From positions 186,001-250,000 of the forward strand of contig JAJQHD010000057.1 in the NCBI GenBank assembly GCA_021199855.1: a DNA stretch of 64,000 bases, written 5' to 3'. Every line of letters starts with the position of its first letter. Within the stretch, counting starts at the first letter, position 1. A model generated the notes under the pieces. The model had not been told where the DNA came from. It ran no database searches and worked only from the letters and a program-made list of their open reading frames with translations. Both the position numbers and the translations under genes were made by a program. The stretch comes from Oscillospiraceae bacterium (GTDB taxonomy: Bacteria > Bacillota > Clostridia > Oscillospirales > Ruminococcaceae). Below, in pieces: positions 29,404 through 40,521 of the stretch.

Positions 29404-32274
29404 TTAGAGAGTTTCGACGCTATCAAGTTCTTCACATTCATCAAGCTGCTTCTTTGAACCTACAATGCAGATGCCGCCATCGCAGATGACCTTGTCGATG
29501 TTGTAGGACAGCTCCATTAGCTTCTCAGGTGTTGCGCCGATGAGCTCGTGATACTTTTCAACAACACGCTCAGGCGTGATGCCTGAGAAGTATCTGTTAT
29601 CGGAGATGGTGCCCTTCATGCTCGGTGTGGTGAGGCGGAACATGTCCGAAACACTGCCGATGATGAAGCCGGTGAGGTCGTCATTATTTTTCAGGAAGTC
29701 TCTCAGGAATTCTCCACTCTTCTTGAAGTAGCCTAAAGACCTGTTCGCACTCGGGTCACGGTAGGAGTGGCAGGTGATATAACCGGAATCACGTGCCACG
29801 AATCCGGTGCCATAAGCTCCACCCTGTACTCTGATTACGTTCCAGAGGTAGCCGTATGTCAGGATTCTCGCCGCAACGCTGTAGTCTCCGGTGACGGTTT
29901 CGCCGAGGGCTGAAACACTGCTTCCCATAGCCGCAAATGCAATTTCGGTAGGAACCGCAATTCCCTCTTTCTTGATGCCAAATGGCTTCAAATCTGCCTT
30001 GCCGGCTGACTTTCCAACAGCAGGAAGAGTAGATACAACGCCATTAACAACCGTCTCAGCGGCATTCGCCATTTCGCCGGTGATACTTACAATAGCTCTG
30101 TCAGAGCCGATGATTTTACTCTTGACGCCTTCAAGTTTAGAAAGAAGTCCCGAAATGTCGCCTTCAAACTCGCCGAGAGTCTTGTAGTAGCTTATGCCGG
30201 AGGTGTATTCACCGACAACACCGGAAGGTGAAATCTGTGCTTCGACTCTGCCAAGAGCCGCCATATTTCCTCTCATAAGAATGTCCGAGAAGAGGGAAGT
30301 CTTTTCCTGCTTCAGAATCTCTGAAATCGAAGTCTCGTTGTCAAGCTTTGTTTCCGAGAGAATCTCGCAGACAAGCTTTGTAGCGTCTTCAAGCTTTGTT
30401 TCAAGAGCTGAGTAAGAGACAGCAAACTTGACGTCATAGTTATCCGAACTCGGGTAAGCCGAAACCTTTGCGCTGAAGTTACCGCAGTAGAAGTTAAGAA
30501 GTGTCTGAAGCTTTTCGGCTGAATGAGACTTTGTGTCGACTCTTCCGAGTAGCGAGCAAAGAAGCGAAGCCGCAGAGAGCTCTTTTTCACTCAAATCGGT
30601 AGCGTCAAAATAGAGATTTGTATAGACAATTCCGGAAGTATTCAGCTTGTGGGTGAGAACTTTGACACCATTAATCTCCGATTCTTCCATCGGGAACTTC
30701 TCCGGTTCGTCGGGCAAATCGCTGAGTTTGAGCATAGGAAGCGTTGCAAGATTTTCGGGAGTGTCCTCGCTGTGTTGCCAAGCTTCAAGTTTCTCCTGCT
30801 TTTTGATAAGAGCCTCACGCTCCTCAGGAGTCCAGGACTCTTCTTCACGCTTCAGCCTTGCCTGCTCTATTTCGGCAGTCGTCTCAGCATAGGTGTGCGA
30901 AGGCTTCAAAATAACCTTGCAGGTGTGATTGTTATCAAGGAGAACGTCCCTGATAAGCTGTTCAAAGTAGCCTTCATCAGCCTTCTTCTTCAGATCTTCA
31001 AACATATCGCCGACAACAAGCTTTGTCGCCGGGTCGCCGCCATAGAGCCATGTGTCAAGAGCGGTGAGTCCGAATACAAGACCCTTCGGTCCGTAGTCCT
31101 TTTCATGAAGCTTGAATTCAAGGTTCGCCATCGAGGACTCCAACTGCTCACGATCAACACCGCCGTCTGCAATGCCAGTCAAAGTATCTCTTACAATCTT
31201 CTCGACTTTGACTTTATCCTCTTCCTTGAGGTTTCTGATTTCAAGAACTGCATACGGCTGTAGAATACCGTCGGAAATCCGGAGTATAACGTCCTCAGCG
31301 AGACCTTCCGAGAGAATAGCTCTGCTGAGCGGCGAGTGGTTGGTTCCTGCAAGAACTTCCGCCAGAACATCCATAGCAATAAGCTTTTCGTACTCATCAT
31401 AGGTGCCGATTACGTTGCCATAGGCAAGTCTTGTGTGTCCTTCAAGCTCTTCGGAGGGTGAAAGACCGTACTCATGCTCAATAACTCCACCGTCAATCGG
31501 TTTCTGCATTTCAATCGGAGGAATCTCCGGAGCGGCATCATAGTGGCTGAGATACTCGTTATCAATAATACCGAGTGTCGTGTCGATGTCAACACTGCCG
31601 TCAATGAAGATGTAGGAATTAGACGGGTCGTAGTATTTCTTGTGGTTCGCAATGAACATCTCATAAGAAAGGTCGGGAATACTTGCCGGAGCTCCGCCCG
31701 AATTGTGCTTGTAGCAGTTGTCGGGGAAGAGCCCCTGCATAACTGCCTCTTCGAGAATGTCGTCTGGGTCGGAAGTAGCGCCTTTCATCTCGTTGAAGAC
31801 AACGCCCTTGTAGCTGACGGTACCATCTTCTGCGAACTCGTGGTGCCAGCCTTCCTGATAGAAGATTTCAGGCTTCGAGTAGATAAGCGGATGGAAAACA
31901 GCGTCCAAGTAAACCCTCATAAGGTTTATGAAATCCTGATTGTTCTTACTGGAAACGGGATAAACCGTCTTGTCCGAGAAGGTCATGGCGTTCAGGAACG
32001 TATTCATCGAGTTTTTAAGAAGCTCGACAAACGGCTCCTTCACGGGATAACGGTCGGAACCGTTGAGAACCGAGTGCTCAAGGATGTGGAACACACCCGT
32101 GTCGTTTTCCGGCAGGGTCTTGAATGCGATGCCGAAAGTCTTGTTATCGTCCTCACGTTCAATCCAGATAAGCCGTGCGGCCGACTTAACATGCTTCATT
32201 TCGTGGAGCTTAGCGTCGATTTCAGAGAGCTCTCTGACTCTCGTTTCGGCAAAGCCGTGGAATAATTCTGACAT
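29404..32274 (-). CDS. M16C family metallopeptidase (presequence protease-like)
   Basis: 956 residues, the single-chain four-domain form of the insulinase/pitrilysin superfamily. The inverted zinc motif HILEH (H-x2-EH) is near residue 56, with the distal Glu region KGVVFNEMKGA about 90 residues later, and the presequence-peptidase family C-terminal domain is present. It probably degrades peptides in the cytosol, as no signal peptide is visible. Ribosome site AGGAGGT and a minus-strand promoter at 32331-32359. Monocistronic. Confidence 0.92.
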   Translation of the reverse strand: MSELFHGFAETRVRELSEIDAKLHEMKHVKSAARLIWIEREDDNKTFGIAFKTLPENDTGVFHILEHSVLNGSDRYPVKEPFVELLKNSMNTFLNAMTFSDKTVYPVSSKNNQDFINLMRVYLDAVFHPLIYSKPEIFYQEGWHHEFAEDGTVSYKGVVFNEMKGATSDPDDILEEAVMQGLFPDNCYKHNSGGAPASIPDLSYEMFIANHKKYYDPSNSYIFIDGSVDIDTTLGIIDNEYLSHYDAAPEIPPIEMQKPIDGGVIEHEYGLSPSEELEGHTRLAYGNVIGTYDEYEKLIAMDVLAEVLAGTNHSPLSRAILSEGLAEDVILRISDGILQPYAVLEIRNLKEEDKVKVEKIVRDTLTGIADGGVDREQLESSMANLEFKLHEKDYGPKGLVFGLTALDTWLYGGDPATKLVVGDMFEDLKKKADEGYFEQLIRDVLLDNNHTCKVILKPSHTYAETTAEIEQARLKREEESWTPEEREALIKKQEKLEAWQHSEDTPENLATLPMLKLSDLPDEPEKFPMEESEINGVKVLTHKLNTSGIVYTNLYFDATDLSEKELSAASLLCSLLGRVDTKSHSAEKLQTLLNFYCGNFSAKVSAYPSSDNYDVKFAVSYSALETKLEDATKLVCEILSETKLDNETSISEILKQEKTSLFSDILMRGNMAALGRVEAQISPSGVVGEYTSGISYYKTLGEFEGDISGLLSKLEGVKSKIIGSDRAIVSITGEMANAAETVVNGVVSTLPAVGKSAGKADLKPFGIKKEGIAVPTEIAFAAMGSSVSALGETVTGDYSVAARILTYGYLWNVIRVQGGAYGTGFVARDSGYITCHSYRDPSANRSLGYFKKSGEFLRDFLKNNDDLTGFIIGSVSDMFRLTTPSMKGTISDNRYFSGITPERVVEKYHELIGATPEKLMELSYNIDKVICDGGICIVGSKKQLDECEELDSVETL

Positions 32275-33204: not shown

Positions 33205-34128
33205 ATGACACTTCAACAGCTCAGATATGCAATCACAATTTCCGAAACCGGCTCCTTCAATAAAGCCGCAGAGGTTTTATACATAGCTCAGCCATCACTG
33301 ACAAGCTCAATGCAGGAGCTTGAAAAAGAGCTCGGCATAACGATTTTCTATAGAAGCGGCAGGGGAGTAACTTTAACAAACGACGGTGCAGAGTTCCTCC
33401 CGTATGTGAGACAGCTCTACAATCAGTATGAAGCCCTTGTCGAAAAGTACGGCAATCAGAGCTACAAAAAGAAATTCGGAGTCTCAACTCAGCACTATTC
33501 CTTTGCAGTAAAAGCTTTTGTCGAGCTTGTCAAGCACTACGACACTGCAAAGTACGAGTTCGCCATCCGTGAGACAAAGACCCGTGACGTCATCTCTGAC
33601 GTAAGCACCATGAAAAGCGAGATTGGAATCCTCTATCTGAGTGACTTTAACTGCGCCGCAATCGGCAAAATCTTAAAGAGCAACAACCTCGAATTCTACC
33701 ATCTAATCGAATGTAATGCCTACGTTTATCTCTGGAAAGGCCATCCGCTGGCGAATAACGAATCAATTGGCTTTGAAGAGCTTAAAGACTATCCCTGCCT
33801 TTCCTTCGAGCAGGGCGAAACGAGCTCCTTTTACTTTGCCGAGGAAATACTCAGCACCTCCGAATATTCCTATACGATAAAAGCCAACGACCGGGCAACG
33901 ATGCTTAACCTTATGGTCGGCTTGAACGGTTATACTCTTTGTTCCGGAATCATCTGCGAGGAGCTCAACGGCAGTGACTACGTTGCAGTCCCGTTCAGAA
34001 CCGATGATGAGTCGGGAAGCCGGATGGAAATAGGCTATATCACCAAGAAGAATGTCCAGCTAAGCCACATCGGACAGGAATATATTACCGAGATTCAAAA
34101 TTATCTCGGAATAAAACACAAAGAATAA
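33205..34128 (+). CDS. LysR-type transcriptional regulator
   Basis: 307 residues from the ATG at 33205 (GAAGGGA site). N-terminal LysR helix-turn-helix (GSFNKAAEVLYIAQPSLTSS) with the usual wing, then a two-lobed effector domain. It is directly upstream of a methionine-type ABC importer, with a T-N11-A dyad at 34137-34153 between them, so it probably controls that importer. The effector (a sulfur metabolite is one guess) is not shown by sequence. Confidence 0.88.
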   Translation: MTLQQLRYAITISETGSFNKAAEVLYIAQPSLTSSMQELEKELGITIFYRSGRGVTLTNDGAEFLPYVRQLYNQYEALVEKYGNQSYKKKFGVSTQHYSFAVKAFVELVKHYDTAKYEFAIRETKTRDVISDVSTMKSEIGILYLSDFNCAAIGKILKSNNLEFYHLIECNAYVYLWKGHPLANNESIGFEELKDYPCLSFEQGETSSFYFAEEILSTSEYSYTIKANDRATMLNLMVGLNGYTLCSGIICEELNGSDYVAVPFRTDDESGSRMEIGYITKKNVQLSHIGQEYITEIQNYLGIKHKE

Positions 34129-34136
34129 TAAATCTC

Positions 34137-34153
34137 TATAGGTAAAATCTATA
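34137..34153 (+). promoter_or_regulatory. LysR-type operator upstream of metQ
   Basis: TATAG-N7-CTATA, a perfect interrupted palindrome in the T-N11-A arrangement of LysR binding sites, 22 bp ahead of the -35 of the metQ promoter. Confidence 0.55.
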
Positions 34154-34266: not shown

Positions 34267-35019
34267 ATGAAAAGATTTATATCACTTCTTCTTTGCGCAG
34301 TACTTTCGCTCTCGCTCCTCTCCGGATGCGGAAGCTCGTCTGATGCAATCACAATCGCAGTTCCTAACGACACCACCAATGAAGCAAGAGCACTTCTCCT
34401 TCTCGAAGAACTCGGCTACATTACTCTCAAAGATGGAGCAGGCATCACCGCAACCGTCGGCGACATCGAGGACAACCCTTACGGCATTGAGTTCAGCGAA
34501 GTTGAAGCCGCACAGCTCCCGAATGTCTTGCAGGACGTCGACTATGCTATAATCAATTCCAACTATGCAATCGAAGCTGGTCTCAATCCTGTTGAAGAAT
34601 CCCTTGCAATGGAAGGCTCATCCTCCGCATATAGCAATGTTCTGGTAGTCAAGGAAGGCAATGAGGGAACCGACAAAATCAAGGCTCTTCAGGCTGCACT
34701 TGAAAGCCAGCAGGTAGCTGACTACATCGCATCTACATACGATGGAGCTGTTGTAAGCACAGTTGATAACCCCGGCGACGGCTATGACGACACCGTTGAC
34801 TATGACGCACTCGCAGGAACCACAATCACGGTTGCCGCTTCTCCCACGCCTCATGCAGAGATTCTCGCAGTAGCAAAGGAAATCCTTGCTGAGAAGGACA
34901 TCACCCTTGACATCATCGAATTTACCGATTATGTTCAGCCGAACAATGTCGTTGAGAGCGGCGAAGTCGACGCCAACTACTTCCAGCATACTCCTTACCT
35001 TGACGACTTCAACGAGTAG
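34267..35019 (+). CDS. metQ: MetQ-like substrate-binding lipoprotein, circularly permuted and ending at an in-frame TAG
   Basis: 250 residues. The lipoprotein signal has its lipobox cysteine at residue 21 (LSGC). The mature order is unlike normal MetQ. Residues 28-165 are the usual C-terminal half (IAVPNDTTNEARALLLLEELG, ..QLPNVLQDVDYAIINSNYA). A linker of about 20 residues rich in Asp/Gly follows. Residues 187-250 are the usual N-terminal half (VAASPTPHAEIL, DANYFQHTPYLDDFNE). The TAG at 35017-35019 falls where family members have a residue before NGTHLVAV. The next 31 codons complete the half-domain (see 35020). First gene of metQ-metN-metI. Family identity is firm; function of the truncated product is doubtful. 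Confidence 0.85.
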   Translation: MKRFISLLLCAVLSLSLLSGCGSSSDAITIAVPNDTTNEARALLLLEELGYITLKDGAGITATVGDIEDNPYGIEFSEVEAAQLPNVLQDVDYAIINSNYAIEAGLNPVEESLAMEGSSSAYSNVLVVKEGNEGTDKIKALQAALESQQVADYIASTYDGAVVSTVDNPGDGYDDTVDYDALAGTTITVAASPTPHAEILAVAKEILAEKDITLDIIEFTDYVQPNNVVESGEVDANYFQHTPYLDDFNE

Positions 35020-35115
35020 AATGGCACACACCTCGTTGCCGTCTCGGCTATCCATGTTGAGCCGATGGGTCTTTACGGTGGCAAGCAGTCTTCACTCGAC
35101 GCTATCACTGAGTAA
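35020..35115 (+). pseudogene. metQ: In-frame remainder of metQ beyond the TAG codon
   Basis: Thirty-one codons in the metQ frame read NGTHLVAVSAIHVEPMGLYG followed by GKQSSLDAITE, a conserved MetQ segment, then TAA at 35113-35115. With the TAG read as an amino acid, the full protein would be 282 residues, a normal MetQ length. The tail ends in SLDAIT, matching SDAIT at the new N-terminal junction. No separate start or ribosome site is evident. Confidence 0.8.
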
Positions 35116-35197: not shown

Positions 35198-36208
35198 ATG
35201 ATAGAACTAAAGAACCTGTCAAAGACATTCACCACCGCCGGTGGTCAAGTCGAGGCACTTAAAAACATCTCCCTCACAATCCCGGACGGCGAAATCTACG
35301 GAATCATCGGTATGAGTGGTGCAGGAAAGAGCACTCTCGTTCGGTGTATCAACATGCTCGAACGCCCGACCGAGGGAAGTGTCCTTATTGACGGCAAAAA
35401 TCTGAACGAGCTTTCGGAAGCGGAGCTTCGTCAAGAACGCCAGAAAATCACGATGATTTTCCAGGACTTCAACCTTCTGATGCAACGAAACTGCCTTAAA
35501 AACGTCTGCTTCCCGTTGGAACTTGCAGGTGTAAAGAAATCTGAAGCCGTTGCAAGGGCAACTGAACTTCTGGAAACTGTCGGGCTTTCTGACAAGGCAA
35601 AAGCCTATCCTGCCCAGCTTTCCGGCGGTCAACAGCAACGTATCGCTATCGCAAGAGCATTGGCAACTCATCCGAAGATTCTTCTTTGCGACGAGGCTAC
35701 AAGCGCCCTTGACCCTCAGACAACCCATTCGATTCTTTCCCTTATCCGTGAAGTCAGAGACCAGCTCGGGCTTACAGTTATAGTCATAACCCACCAGATG
35801 AGCGTTGTCGAGGAAATCTGCGGCAGAGTCGCAATTCTCAACGGCGGAGAAGTAGTCGAGGAAGGACCTGTACATGAGGTCTTTTCCGCTCCGAAATCGG
35901 ATGCCGCAAAGAGACTTGTTTACCCGGACGGCTATTCCGAGACTTTGGTTCCTGCTCCCGGCGAGCACTTCATCCGTGTCGTCTACAATGGTGCAGAAGT
36001 CAGCAAAACTCCGCTTATTGCCCAGATGGCGATGGACAAGAATATCCCGGCAAGCATCCGTTCTGCATCCACCCGAAGCCTCGGCGGAAAAGCCTACGGC
36101 AATATGCTTTTAAGCGTCACTGGCGACGACGCACTCGCTCAGGAAGCTATCAGTTACTTAAGAGAAATCCCCGACATCATCGCAGAGGAGGTTGAGCTAA
36201 ATGCTTGA
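35198..36208 (+). CDS. metN: Methionine ABC transporter ATP-binding protein
   Basis: 336 residues. ABC ATPase with Walker A GMSGAGKST (about residues 37-45), signature LSGGQQQR and Walker B ILLCDEATSALD, followed by a C-terminal NIL/ACT-like domain (about residues 260-336), typical of MetN, which binds methionine and inhibits transport. Overlaps metI by 8 nt. The start has an AAGGAG site. Confidence 0.93.
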   Translation: MIELKNLSKTFTTAGGQVEALKNISLTIPDGEIYGIIGMSGAGKSTLVRCINMLERPTEGSVLIDGKNLNELSEAELRQERQKITMIFQDFNLLMQRNCLKNVCFPLELAGVKKSEAVARATELLETVGLSDKAKAYPAQLSGGQQQRIAIARALATHPKILLCDEATSALDPQTTHSILSLIREVRDQLGLTVIVITHQMSVVEEICGRVAILNGGEVVEEGPVHEVFSAPKSDAAKRLVYPDGYSETLVPAPGEHFIRVVYNGAEVSKTPLIAQMAMDKNIPASIRSASTRSLGGKAYGNMLLSVTGDDALAQEAISYLREIPDIIAEEVELNA

Positions 36209-36890
36209 TATTTTCAGCTCTGAAGAAGTACAGGAAGCCCTTGAAATCTTCGTCCGTGAATTCCCGACAGCGATCTGGGAGACGGTCTATGTCACCGTCA
36301 TTTCGACCTTCTTCGCTGTTCTCATCGGTCTTCCGCTTGGAGTAATCCTGGTAGCAGGGGACAAGAAGATTCTTAAAATCCCATCAGGGTTCCTCCACGT
36401 CTTAAACGTCATCATAAATCTGTTGCGTTCAATCCCATTCCTGATTCTTATGATAATGGTATTTCCATTGACGAGACTTATCGTCAGCACGGTTGTCGGA
36501 ACAGTCGCATCTATAGTTCCTCTTGTAATTGCTGCATTTCCGTTCATCGCAAGACTTGTTGAGACAAGTCTTCGGGAGCTCGACCCAAACATCATCGAAA
36601 TGGCGCAGAGTATGGGTGCAAAACCGATTCAAATTATCGTAAAGGTAATGATTCCCGAGAGCATCCCGTCGCTTCTTTCAAACCTCACTACAGCGATGAC
36701 CACTATTTTAGGTTACTCCGCAATGAGCGGCATAATCGGCGGCGGCGGTCTCGGCAAAATCGCCATCAACTACGGCTACTATCGCTATCGTTATCTTGTA
36801 ATGCTACTTGCGGTCGTCTTCCTGATTCTTCTCGTGCAGATAATCCAGACGGTAGGCACACACTTAGCAACAAAACTTGACAGACGTTAA
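36201..36890 (+). CDS. metI: Methionine ABC transporter permease
   Basis: 229 residues with five predicted membrane helices and the EAA loop (ELDPNIIEMAQSMGAKPIQI) for contact with MetN. The usual MetI length and C-terminal GGGLGKIAINYGYYRY segment are present. Last gene of the metQNI operon, followed by a strong terminator. Confidence 0.93.
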   Translation: MLDIFSSEEVQEALEIFVREFPTAIWETVYVTVISTFFAVLIGLPLGVILVAGDKKILKIPSGFLHVLNVIINLLRSIPFLILMIMVFPLTRLIVSTVVGTVASIVPLVIAAFPFIARLVETSLRELDPNIIEMAQSMGAKPIQIIVKVMIPESIPSLLSNLTTAMTTILGYSAMSGIIGGGGLGKIAINYGYYRYRYLVMLLAVVFLILLVQIIQTVGTHLATKLDRR

Positions 36891-37516: not shown

Positions 37517-38179
37517 ATGGCAGATTCAGTACATATCAGTGGCGCAGGCAATGTCGGCGGTGGAGAATATAATAACATAAGCATAAGCGGTTCAGGCGAG
37601 GTGACATCAGATGTCAGGTGCCAGAGCTTTGGAAGTTCTGGTTCAATGCATATTGCGGGTTCTGTAGAATGTTCAGGCGAATTCAAAATCGCTGGCTCTG
37701 GTCGGGTTGACGGCGACATAAAATGCGGAAGCTGTCGTCTTGCCGGTTCCGCAAAAGTTAAAAGCATAGAAGCCAATGGAGAATTGAAGCTCGCCGGTGG
37801 ATTCAATGCAGACGGCAATGTTTCGGGCGAGAAAGTCACTATCGTCGGTGCGGCAAATATTAATGGACTTATTAACGGCGATGAAATAACAATTTCGTTT
37901 GACGGTGATGGTATCAAAGCTAATGAAATCGGCGGTGGAACTATCAAAATAGCTCCCAAAAAAGAACAGAAAGCATATTGGTTCAGAAAAAAGAAAATTA
38001 AGCATTCCGAAATCGGCACTATCGAGGGCGATGAGATAAGCCTTGAGCTTGTCAAGGCTGACGTAGTCCGTGGCGCTAATGTAACGATAGGCGACGGTTG
38101 TGAGATTGGAAAAGTTGAATACTCAGAAAGCCTTGAAATCTCCGAAAACGCCAATGTCGACCACCAAGTGAAAATTTGA
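37517..38179 (+). CDS. Bactofilin-like polymer-forming protein (YhbE/YhbF type)
   Basis: 220 residues, starting 4 nt after the YhbD-like gene. Nearly the whole chain is short repeating strands rich in Gly, Ser and Asp (ISGSGEV, IAGSGRVDGDIKC, LAGSAKV), as in a right-handed beta-helix of bactofilins. A basic RKKK break is near residue 158. Likely self-assembles into filaments or a membrane-associated scaffold. No membrane helix is seen. Confidence 0.8.
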   Translation: MADSVHISGAGNVGGGEYNNISISGSGEVTSDVRCQSFGSSGSMHIAGSVECSGEFKIAGSGRVDGDIKCGSCRLAGSAKVKSIEANGELKLAGGFNADGNVSGEKVTIVGAANINGLINGDEITISFDGDGIKANEIGGGTIKIAPKKEQKAYWFRKKKIKHSEIGTIEGDEISLELVKADVVRGANVTIGDGCEIGKVEYSESLEISENANVDHQVKI

Positions 38180-38424: not shown

Positions 38425-40521
38425 ATGAAAAAGATACCCGAGTATTTTGGATGTATGGTATTTGACGACCGCGAGATGAAGGCAAGACTCTCGTCAAAGG
38501 TCTACAATTCCCTGAACAAGACCATCGTCGAGAATGCAAGACTTGACATTGAGGTCGCCGATGCTGTAGCACAGGCTATGAAGGACTGGGCAGTCGAGAA
38601 CGGTGCAACCCATTACACTCACTGGTTCCAGCCTCTCACAGGCATCACCGCCGAAAAACACGACTCATTTATTTCTCCCGCACCTGACGGAGGAGTTTTA
38701 ATGGAGTTCTCCGGCAAGGAGCTCATCAAGGGCGAGCCTGATGCTTCCTCGTTCCCGTCTGGCGGATTAAGAGCTACCTTCGAGGCAAGAGGCTATACCG
38801 CTTGGGACCCGACTTCATATGCCTTCATCAAGGGCAAGACGCTCTGCATTCCGACTGCATTCTGCTCCTACGGCGGCGAAGCACTCGACAAGAAGACACC
38901 TCTTCTGAGATCCATGCAGGCTCTCAACAAGCAGGCACTGAGAATCCTCAAGCTCTTCGGTAATGACGATGTAAAGTGCGTAAAGACTTCCGTCGGACCC
39001 GAGCAGGAATACTTCCTTATCGACAAGGAAATGTATAATAAGAGAAAAGACCTCATCTTCACCGGCAGAACCCTCTTCGGTGCACCGGCACCCAAGGGTC
39101 AGGAGCTTGACGACCACTACTTCGGCGTTATCAAGCCAAGAGTAGCCGCTTACATGGAAGACCTCAACGAGGAGCTCTGGAAATTAGGAATCCTTGCAAA
39201 GACAGAACATAACGAGGTTGCACCTGCTCAGCACGAGCTCGCACCTGTTTATTCTACAACAAACATCGCAACCGACAACAACCAGCTCACTATGGAGATT
39301 ATGCAGAAGGTTGCAGACAGACACGGTCTCGTATGCCTCCTCCATGAGAAGCCTTTCGCAGGCGTCAACGGTTCCGGCAAGCACAACAACTGGTCGCTTG
39401 CAACCGATACCGGCGTAAACCTTCTCACTCCCGGCGAAACTCCTTACGAGAACGCCCAGTTCCTTCTCTTCCTCTGCGCTGTAATCAAGGCAGTAGATGA
39501 TTATCAGGATCTTCTGAGACTCTCCGTAGCAACCGCCGGCAACGACCACAGACTCGGTGCCAACGAAGCTCCTCCGGCAGTCATCTCGATGTTCTTAGGC
39601 GACGAGCTCACCGCTGTTCTCGACGCTATCGAGAACGACAAGCCTTATAATGGAACCGAGAAGACTATCATGAAGCTTGGCGTTCACGTACTTCCCAAGT
39701 TCTTCCGTGATACAACCGACCGTAACAGAACTTCGCCGTTCGCATTCACCGGCAACAAGTTCGAGTTCAGAATGCTCGGCTCTTCAAACAGCATTGCTTG
39801 CGCAAACATCATGCTCAACTCCGCAGTTGCTGAGTCCTTGAAGATTTACGCTGACAGACTTGAGGGTGTAGATGACTTCGAGACCGCTCTCCACGAGATG
39901 ATTAAGAAGACCATCAAGGACCACAAGAGAATCATCTTCAACGGCAACGGCTATGACGACGCTTGGATTAAGGAAGCTACCGAGGTAAGAGGACTCTCGA
40001 ACCTGAAGACCACTCCCGACGCAATGCCTAAGCTTCTTGATGAGAAGAATGTGGATATGCTCACTCGTCATAAGGTATATTCGAAGCCTGAGCTCGAATC
40101 CCGTTATGAGATTCTTCTTGAAAACTATCACAAGACCGTACATATCGAAGCCGAGACCATGCTCAACATGGCTCGTAAGGAGATTATGCCGGCAGTAAGC
40201 GCATATGAGGCTGACCTTGCAAAGGCTTTGAACGCTAAGAAGAAAGCTGCTCCCGACGCCGCTTGCGGATATGAGACAAAGCTTATTTCGAAGCTCGCAT
40301 CTCTCGAAGACAAGATTGACGCCGCTACAGATGAGCTTGAAGAGGCAGTTGCAGAATATAAGAAACTGACAGATGTCACAGAGGCGGCAATGTTCATCAA
40401 GGATTCTATAATTCCTAAGATGGATGCGTTGAGAGCACCTTGTGACGAGGCGGAAACTGTAACCGCCAAGAGCTATTGGCCATTCCCGACCTACGGAGAT
40501 CTTCTGTTCGGGGTGAGATAA
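38425..40521 (+). CDS. glnN: Glutamine synthetase type III
   Basis: 698 residues, the length of the GSIII class. Motifs: [11 protein letters not shown] (residues 192-202), [12 protein letters not shown] near 260 and [10 protein letters not shown] near 310 are GSIII-type metal/ATP motifs. It condenses glutamate, ammonia and ATP to glutamine. It heads a nitrogen cluster with amt-PII and asnB. The leader has an attenuator-like hairpin. Good AAAGGAG ribosome site. Confidence 0.95.

Follow-up and report, generated by a model that had tools for sequence, protein, structure and literature searches.

The window analyzed here is a stretch of DNA 64,000 nucleotides long in which a substrate-binding-protein gene lies beside metN and metI, the gene context of a MetNIQ importer (Table 1). 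The encoded protein starts with a lipoprotein signal peptide and lipobox, a layout common to most of its relatives, and continues with the half of MetQ that is normally C terminal (IAVPNDTTNEARALLLL starts at residue 30); contact mapping identifies this half as the lobe whose Arg and two Asn bind the amino-acid end of methionine. A linker, STVDNPGDGYDDTVDYDALAG, whose motif is conserved within group A of the permuted sequences (see below), connects it to the normally N-terminal half (TTITVAASPTPHAEIL...YFQHTPYLDDF...SLDAITE, then TAA), which by the same mapping carries the four residues (Tyr, Phe, His, and Tyr) that surround the thioether. The original prediction had placed a 20-residue Asp/Gly linker here; the linker is present, but profile boundaries give it 21 residues.

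Table 1. Features of the metQ locus and its surroundings (window coordinates)
Feature	Position	Strand	Basis or remark
PreP-like M16C peptidase	29404-32274		
LysR-type regulator, directly upstream of metQ	33205..34128	+	Domain match
Imperfect palindrome ATAGGTAAAATCTATA, between LysR gene and metQ	34138-34153		
Predicted circularly permuted metQ gene	34267..35115	+	282 codons; ATG 34267, in-frame TAG 35017, TAA 35113-35115
Lipoprotein signal peptide and lipobox LSGC (Cys = residue 21)	34267..34329	+	Sequence
MetQ C-terminal half, now first	34348..34758	+	PF03180 98-234
Linker, old C terminus to old mature N terminus (21 residues)	34756..34818	+	Sequence; relatives
MetQ N-terminal half, now last	34819..35112	+	PF03180 1-98
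In-frame TAG	35017..35019	+	Gln codon in 6/6 congeners compared
metN ATPase with C-terminal NIL domain	35198..36208	+	TIGR02314 368.6 bits (cut-off 499.7); PF09383 51.4 bits
metI permease	36201..36890	+	PRK10782 195.4 bits (cut-off 212); PF00528
Bactofilin domain in 220-residue ORF	37517-38179		PF04519
Glutamine synthetase type III	38425-40521		

Operon context

The NIL domain of the window MetN is presumably involved in methionine sensing. The LysR-type gene perhaps regulates the permuted metQ operon; in several group A relatives a LysR gene likewise lies just upstream of permuted metQ. The palindrome between the two genes, perhaps the LysR operator, is kept in congeners with one change in L009. 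A T-box was found 5' of permuted metQ in 2 of the 37 group A loci searched, the close relatives L032 and L034; the specifier reads as AUG in both, and in L034 the T-box leader and terminator stop just before the ribosome site of metQ.

Group A loci have the order metQ-metN-metI in 63 of 77 cases, and most of the others lack enough flank; among the exceptions, L070 has an additional normal operon upstream and L055 has neither metN nor metI within 6 kb. The order is metN-metI-metQ in all 11 loci of group B (with Fournierella) that show both genes and in both group C loci (2/2). Since normal-order loci (n = 61) show both arrangements (metN-metI-metQ in 18, metQ-metN-metI in 13), operon order is weak evidence on origins.

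Identity of the permuted protein

To the Pfam model PF03180, the window protein aligns first over model positions 98-234 (E = 9.4e-47) and then over 1-98 (E = 9.8e-34), so the standard N-to-C order of the halves is swapped; besides these two, no PF03180 match was found in the window genome at E of 0.001 or better. With the TAG read through, the two stretches together score 273.8 bits, and the part before the TAG scores 237.7 bits, each against a cut-off of 27. Scores under NCBIfam TIGR00363 (165; cut-off 228.85) and the MetQ model NF008285 (162.9; cut-off 374) fall below the cut-offs, and split matches depress both scores. The chain of PDB entry 4ib2, from Ruminococcus gnavus, matches both halves in swapped order (118.7 and 145.5 bits), and the best sequence and structure matches of the permuted protein are MetQ entries. 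When its halves were re-ordered, the window protein scored higher against all 61 of 61 normal-order ORFs (median, 664, versus 375 as encoded). The circular permutation of a MetQ lipoprotein that the original prediction had proposed is therefore borne out by the order of the PF03180 halves and by the alignments, and the product is, judged by its sequence, a permuted variant of MetQ/NlpA and not an ordinary member.

NmMetQ binds the amino-acid end of methionine through R156, N213, and N238 of one domain, and its other lobe surrounds the thioether with Y81, F98, H100, and Y103 (PMC6739813). We mapped these seven contacts onto the permuted alignment by spacing and one structural alignment, as R42, N100, N125, Y223, F240, H242, and Y245 (numbering of the permuted alignment). 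Across 95 permuted ORFs, a set that holds at least one genome twice, R42, N125, Y223, F240, and H242 are each kept in 95, Y245 in 94, and N100 in 93, though the search itself partly favored F240 and H242, since both are included in one of the two patterns behind the 56 permuted loci of the contig scan described below; the ORFs missing a contact are group C rows. The break assigns four of the contacts to one half and three to the other, just as the lobes of NmMetQ divide them, in agreement with the predicted break at the crossover between lobes.

Within the genus, dN/dS values of 0.018-0.096 (seven species, 21 pairs, 281 codons) indicate purifying selection on permuted metQ. AlphaFold models reached a pLDDT of 93.4 for the group A protein of L023 (first Met omitted) and 90.8 for the Slackia permuted MetQ.

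Distribution of the swapped order

Among 25 genomes of the genus (the window's own included, some incomplete), 7 carry a permuted metQ, 3 a divergent normal-order gene, and 15 neither. Six congeners encode an intact permuted protein of 282-285 residues; five of them show 89-93% identity to the sixth, which heads their alignment. A pattern scan of genome contigs extended the search; the best 80 loci of its longer list comprise 56 permuted and 24 normal-order loci. Isolates with a permuted metQ include Vescimonas fastidiosa MM35, Oscillibacter sp. ER4, and Slackia faecicanis DSM 17537, and the gene is also present in Treponema drafts. The Vescimonas fastidiosa record annotates it plainly as MetQ/NlpA, an example of how such an annotation can conceal rearrangements of this kind.

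For sampled genomes, we counted a genome as permuted if it gave one unbroken full-length match to a permuted model, because normal order yields split matches; part of these matches were read letter by letter. On this basis, the permuted form occurs in 32 of 394 genomes sampled from the order (31 at E < 1e-100, plus G353) and 18 of 391 sampled from the class, two samples that overlap in some genomes, as well as in 17 of 138 genomes of Slackia's family (Eggerthellaceae) and 8 of 195 from the family of a Treponema. The Slackia family sample holds two more genomes with a group C permuted gene, which also hold normal copies. The original prediction had named the absence of a similar order from every relative as a refutation; congeners, the order, the class, and two further families have it. 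Each of the 32 permuted genomes in the order sample gives a single match (six candidates scored per genome), and normal MetQ looks to have been replaced by the permuted form in them; Oscillibacter ER4 and one Treponema carry both.

Alternative explanations for the window gene

We consider it very probable that the window gene product serves a MetNI methionine importer as its substrate-binding lipoprotein, in naturally circularly permuted form, and that the swap probably arose at least twice. This reading draws on features visible in the sequences themselves, namely, the order of the halves, the signal peptide and lipobox, the ligand contacts, purifying selection, the metN and metI neighbors, and the wide distribution. 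A false order created by assembly or binning, through collapse of a tandem metQ pair, has a negligible chance of being correct: the window genome is a 58-contig draft and tandem normal metQ genes do exist (two copies in L167, three in L168), but the swapped order with its 21-residue linker recurs across many independent assemblies, is found in isolates, and lies on contigs of megabase length (1.54, 1.74, and 2.55 Mb). Misassembly as the source of the arrangement is refuted by this recurrence in relatives, isolates, and long contigs. A different ligand for the protein, or a sensory role in place of one in methionine import, is quite improbable; its scores below the NCBIfam MetQ cut-offs would fit either, though split matches lower them, and against it stand the conserved methionine contacts, the adjoining metN and metI with the NIL domain of the window MetN, and the T-boxes with an AUG specifier at two related loci. 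The in-frame TAG bears on the window strain itself. It would leave a 250-residue product lacking 32 residues at the end, a portion of the first lobe; judged from the L023 model, such a product would keep the contact residues and lose strands of a lobe. The original prediction read this codon as Glu, which did not hold, since the congeners have Gln there. A sense codon in all six congeners compared would be expected if the window strain's metQ were a fresh pseudogene, a possibility that we take seriously but hold to be the less likely one, as relaxed selection is not seen (dN/dS of pairs with the window gene, 0.029-0.072) and a lone odd codon in a draft assembly may be an error or a minority variant.

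Proposed arrangement and number of origins

In the permuted MetQ that we favor, the chain would begin in the normally second lobe, make a single crossing into the first lobe, and pass the old C terminus, from which the linker would lead into the old mature N terminus; the chain would end at the hinge. Compared with standard MetQ/NlpA (PF03180; PDB 4ib2, 4k3f, and NmMetQ), it shares both homologous halves, the ligand contacts, the lipoprotein nature, and the metN and metI neighbors, but the halves are swapped and the linker and the C terminus at the hinge are new. From the order of the chain and the type II topology, the new N terminus and the lipid anchor should sit on the other lobe, and the chain should cross the hinge once instead of twice. 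MetQ lipidation matters for its work with MetNI (PMC8416018). The permuted protein would bind methionine and dock on MetNI as MetQ does.

The permuted sequences fall into three groups: A (Clostridia and Treponema), B (Slackia's family, Eggerthellaceae), and C (divergent; G353, G843, and G911). All are broken at the same inter-lobe hinge and differ in linker, that of group C being much longer, and in MetN partner. In trees built with the halves re-ordered, group A is a single clade with 59 sequences (support, 99) and also with 21 rows in a more careful tree (100/99). There, eight group B rows are sister to the normal-order L160 of Slackia's family (100/92), and group C sits with a distant normal MetQ on long branches. 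L160 is 67.2-71.9% identical to three group B rows, to which the best group A row is 57.6-61.5% identical.

How the permutation may have come about is suggested by the linker of L135, also from Slackia's family: it starts with YNGAVVATF, which is the C terminus of the normal L160 MetQ, and its end resembles the L160 spacer ahead of the first strand. This likeness to both ends of L160 is what head-to-tail joining would leave, and it appears to be a better trace of end-to-end joining than the DAIT words shared by the two ends of the window protein, which the original prediction had read as a mark of tandem duplication. The underlying DNA words, GATGCAATCACA and GACGCTATCACT, are present as it gave them. 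Of 94 permuted ORFs, however, 8 have a D[AV]I[TKQ] word directly ahead of the C-terminal half; seven of the 8 come from this genus (five of these seven read DDVIT), and the word is therefore not a conserved scar. The DAIT at the protein end belongs to the SLDAI-like end of the N-terminal half, found in normal MetQ too. We propose that metQ copies were joined head to tail and the outer parts lost, with the signal peptide retained or recaptured. Normal metQ genes do lie head to tail, three in L168 (G531) and two in L167 (G908), and such tandems would be raw material for permutation by duplication. Permutation by duplication, the model associated with saposin/swaposin, is a standard account of the origin of such proteins (PMC3320104); MetQ differs in that the loci examined showed no fused metQ-metQ intermediate and in that the same break seems to be reused in one family.

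The differences in linker and MetN partner, together with the failure of the groups to come out as a single clade in the careful tree, make at least two origins of the permutation probable. On that tree, an approximately unbiased (AU) test rejected all permuted sequences as one clade (P = 0.0012) and, modestly, groups A and C (P = 0.029) and A and B (P = 0.035) as joint clades. The MetN tree points the same way: eight group B operons lie among actinobacterial normal-order ones (99), though group B is scattered and forms no single clade; group A lies beside four normal-order operons of Oscillospiraceae and the window's order (95), with support of 37 for the whole group (24 of 25 rows, 97); and group C lies elsewhere (91). 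A single origin, after which B and C would have received metQ alone by transfer or normal relatives such as L160 would have reverted, strikes us as unlikely in view of the rejected joint clade, the closeness of the eight B rows to normal L160 rather than to group A, the three places of the MetN partners, and the unlike linkers. In its favor are the identical break point in all groups, the compatibility of group A plus Fournierella with one clade on the careful tree (P = 0.47), and a quick tree containing fewer rows of groups B and C, on which AU tests did not reject one clade (P = 0.57-0.60). The trees of the separate halves, with few columns, keep group A and group C each intact in both cases and group B in the C-half tree only (68). 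That C-half tree, in which few columns go with long branches, also places B, C, L160, and a further normal row in one set (99); the grouping may be long-branch pull, and it calls for caution about separating B from C. As for the stronger form of the multiple-origin reading, that three or four independent events (in Clostridia/Treponema, Slackia's family, the divergent group, and perhaps Fournierella) produced the same permutation at the first inter-lobe hinge, we give it slightly less than even weight. If true, selection would have repeatedly favored anchoring the binding protein by its other lobe and crossing the hinge just once, and type II binding proteins, owing to their pseudo-symmetry, could make such a half-turn again and again in evolution.

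Precedents and implications

To our knowledge, natural circular permutations of transport proteins are rarely documented. In keeping with the original prediction, which knew of no natural permuted MetQ, none of the matches listed in a search of the full-text literature, with subscription papers mostly outside its coverage, describes one; a term search of a 2025 preprint on permutation search showed the word MetQ to be absent. The closest precedent is TpMglB-2 (Tp0684) of T. pallidum, a circularly permuted glucose-binding protein proposed as "Type Ic / Cluster Bc" (PMC4990184). It is likewise a natural permuted ABC substrate-binding protein, with relatives among treponemes and Gram-positive bacteria, and is probably tethered; its authors considered that tethering might explain the permutation. 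Its description, with a Type I / cluster B fold and glucose as the ligand, sets it apart; its final 70-100 residues are left unmatched, and it gains a fourth crossover (PMC4990184), whereas the permuted MetQ would be broken at the first hinge and would have lost one crossover.

Many gut bacteria carry a putative methionine-catching outer protein in which the front and back halves have changed places, probably on more than one occasion and each time at the same spot, a case of evolution rewiring a protein chain and moving its membrane anchor with the working site kept. Repeated permutation at the same place in one family, with living normal-order sisters, would be an unusual natural experiment, and it offers a way to test whether ligand affinity, closing, and docking on MetNI depend on where the lipid tether sits and how often the chain crosses the hinge.

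Variation in signals and domain architecture

The permuted MetQ proteins of L070, L071, and L141-L146, from the Treponema family, have a signal-like start in which no lipobox was found, unlike L050; they are perhaps free in the periplasm. In Faecalibacterium (L069 and L078), a twin-arginine-like signal (TRRSFLK and SRRNFLK) precedes the lipobox of the permuted MetQ. Among normal-order proteins, MetQ follows a family 3 solute-binding domain (SBP_bac_3) in a single chain of ~560 residues at L087:5062-6732, as seen from a domain match, and at L091, as judged from its ORF.
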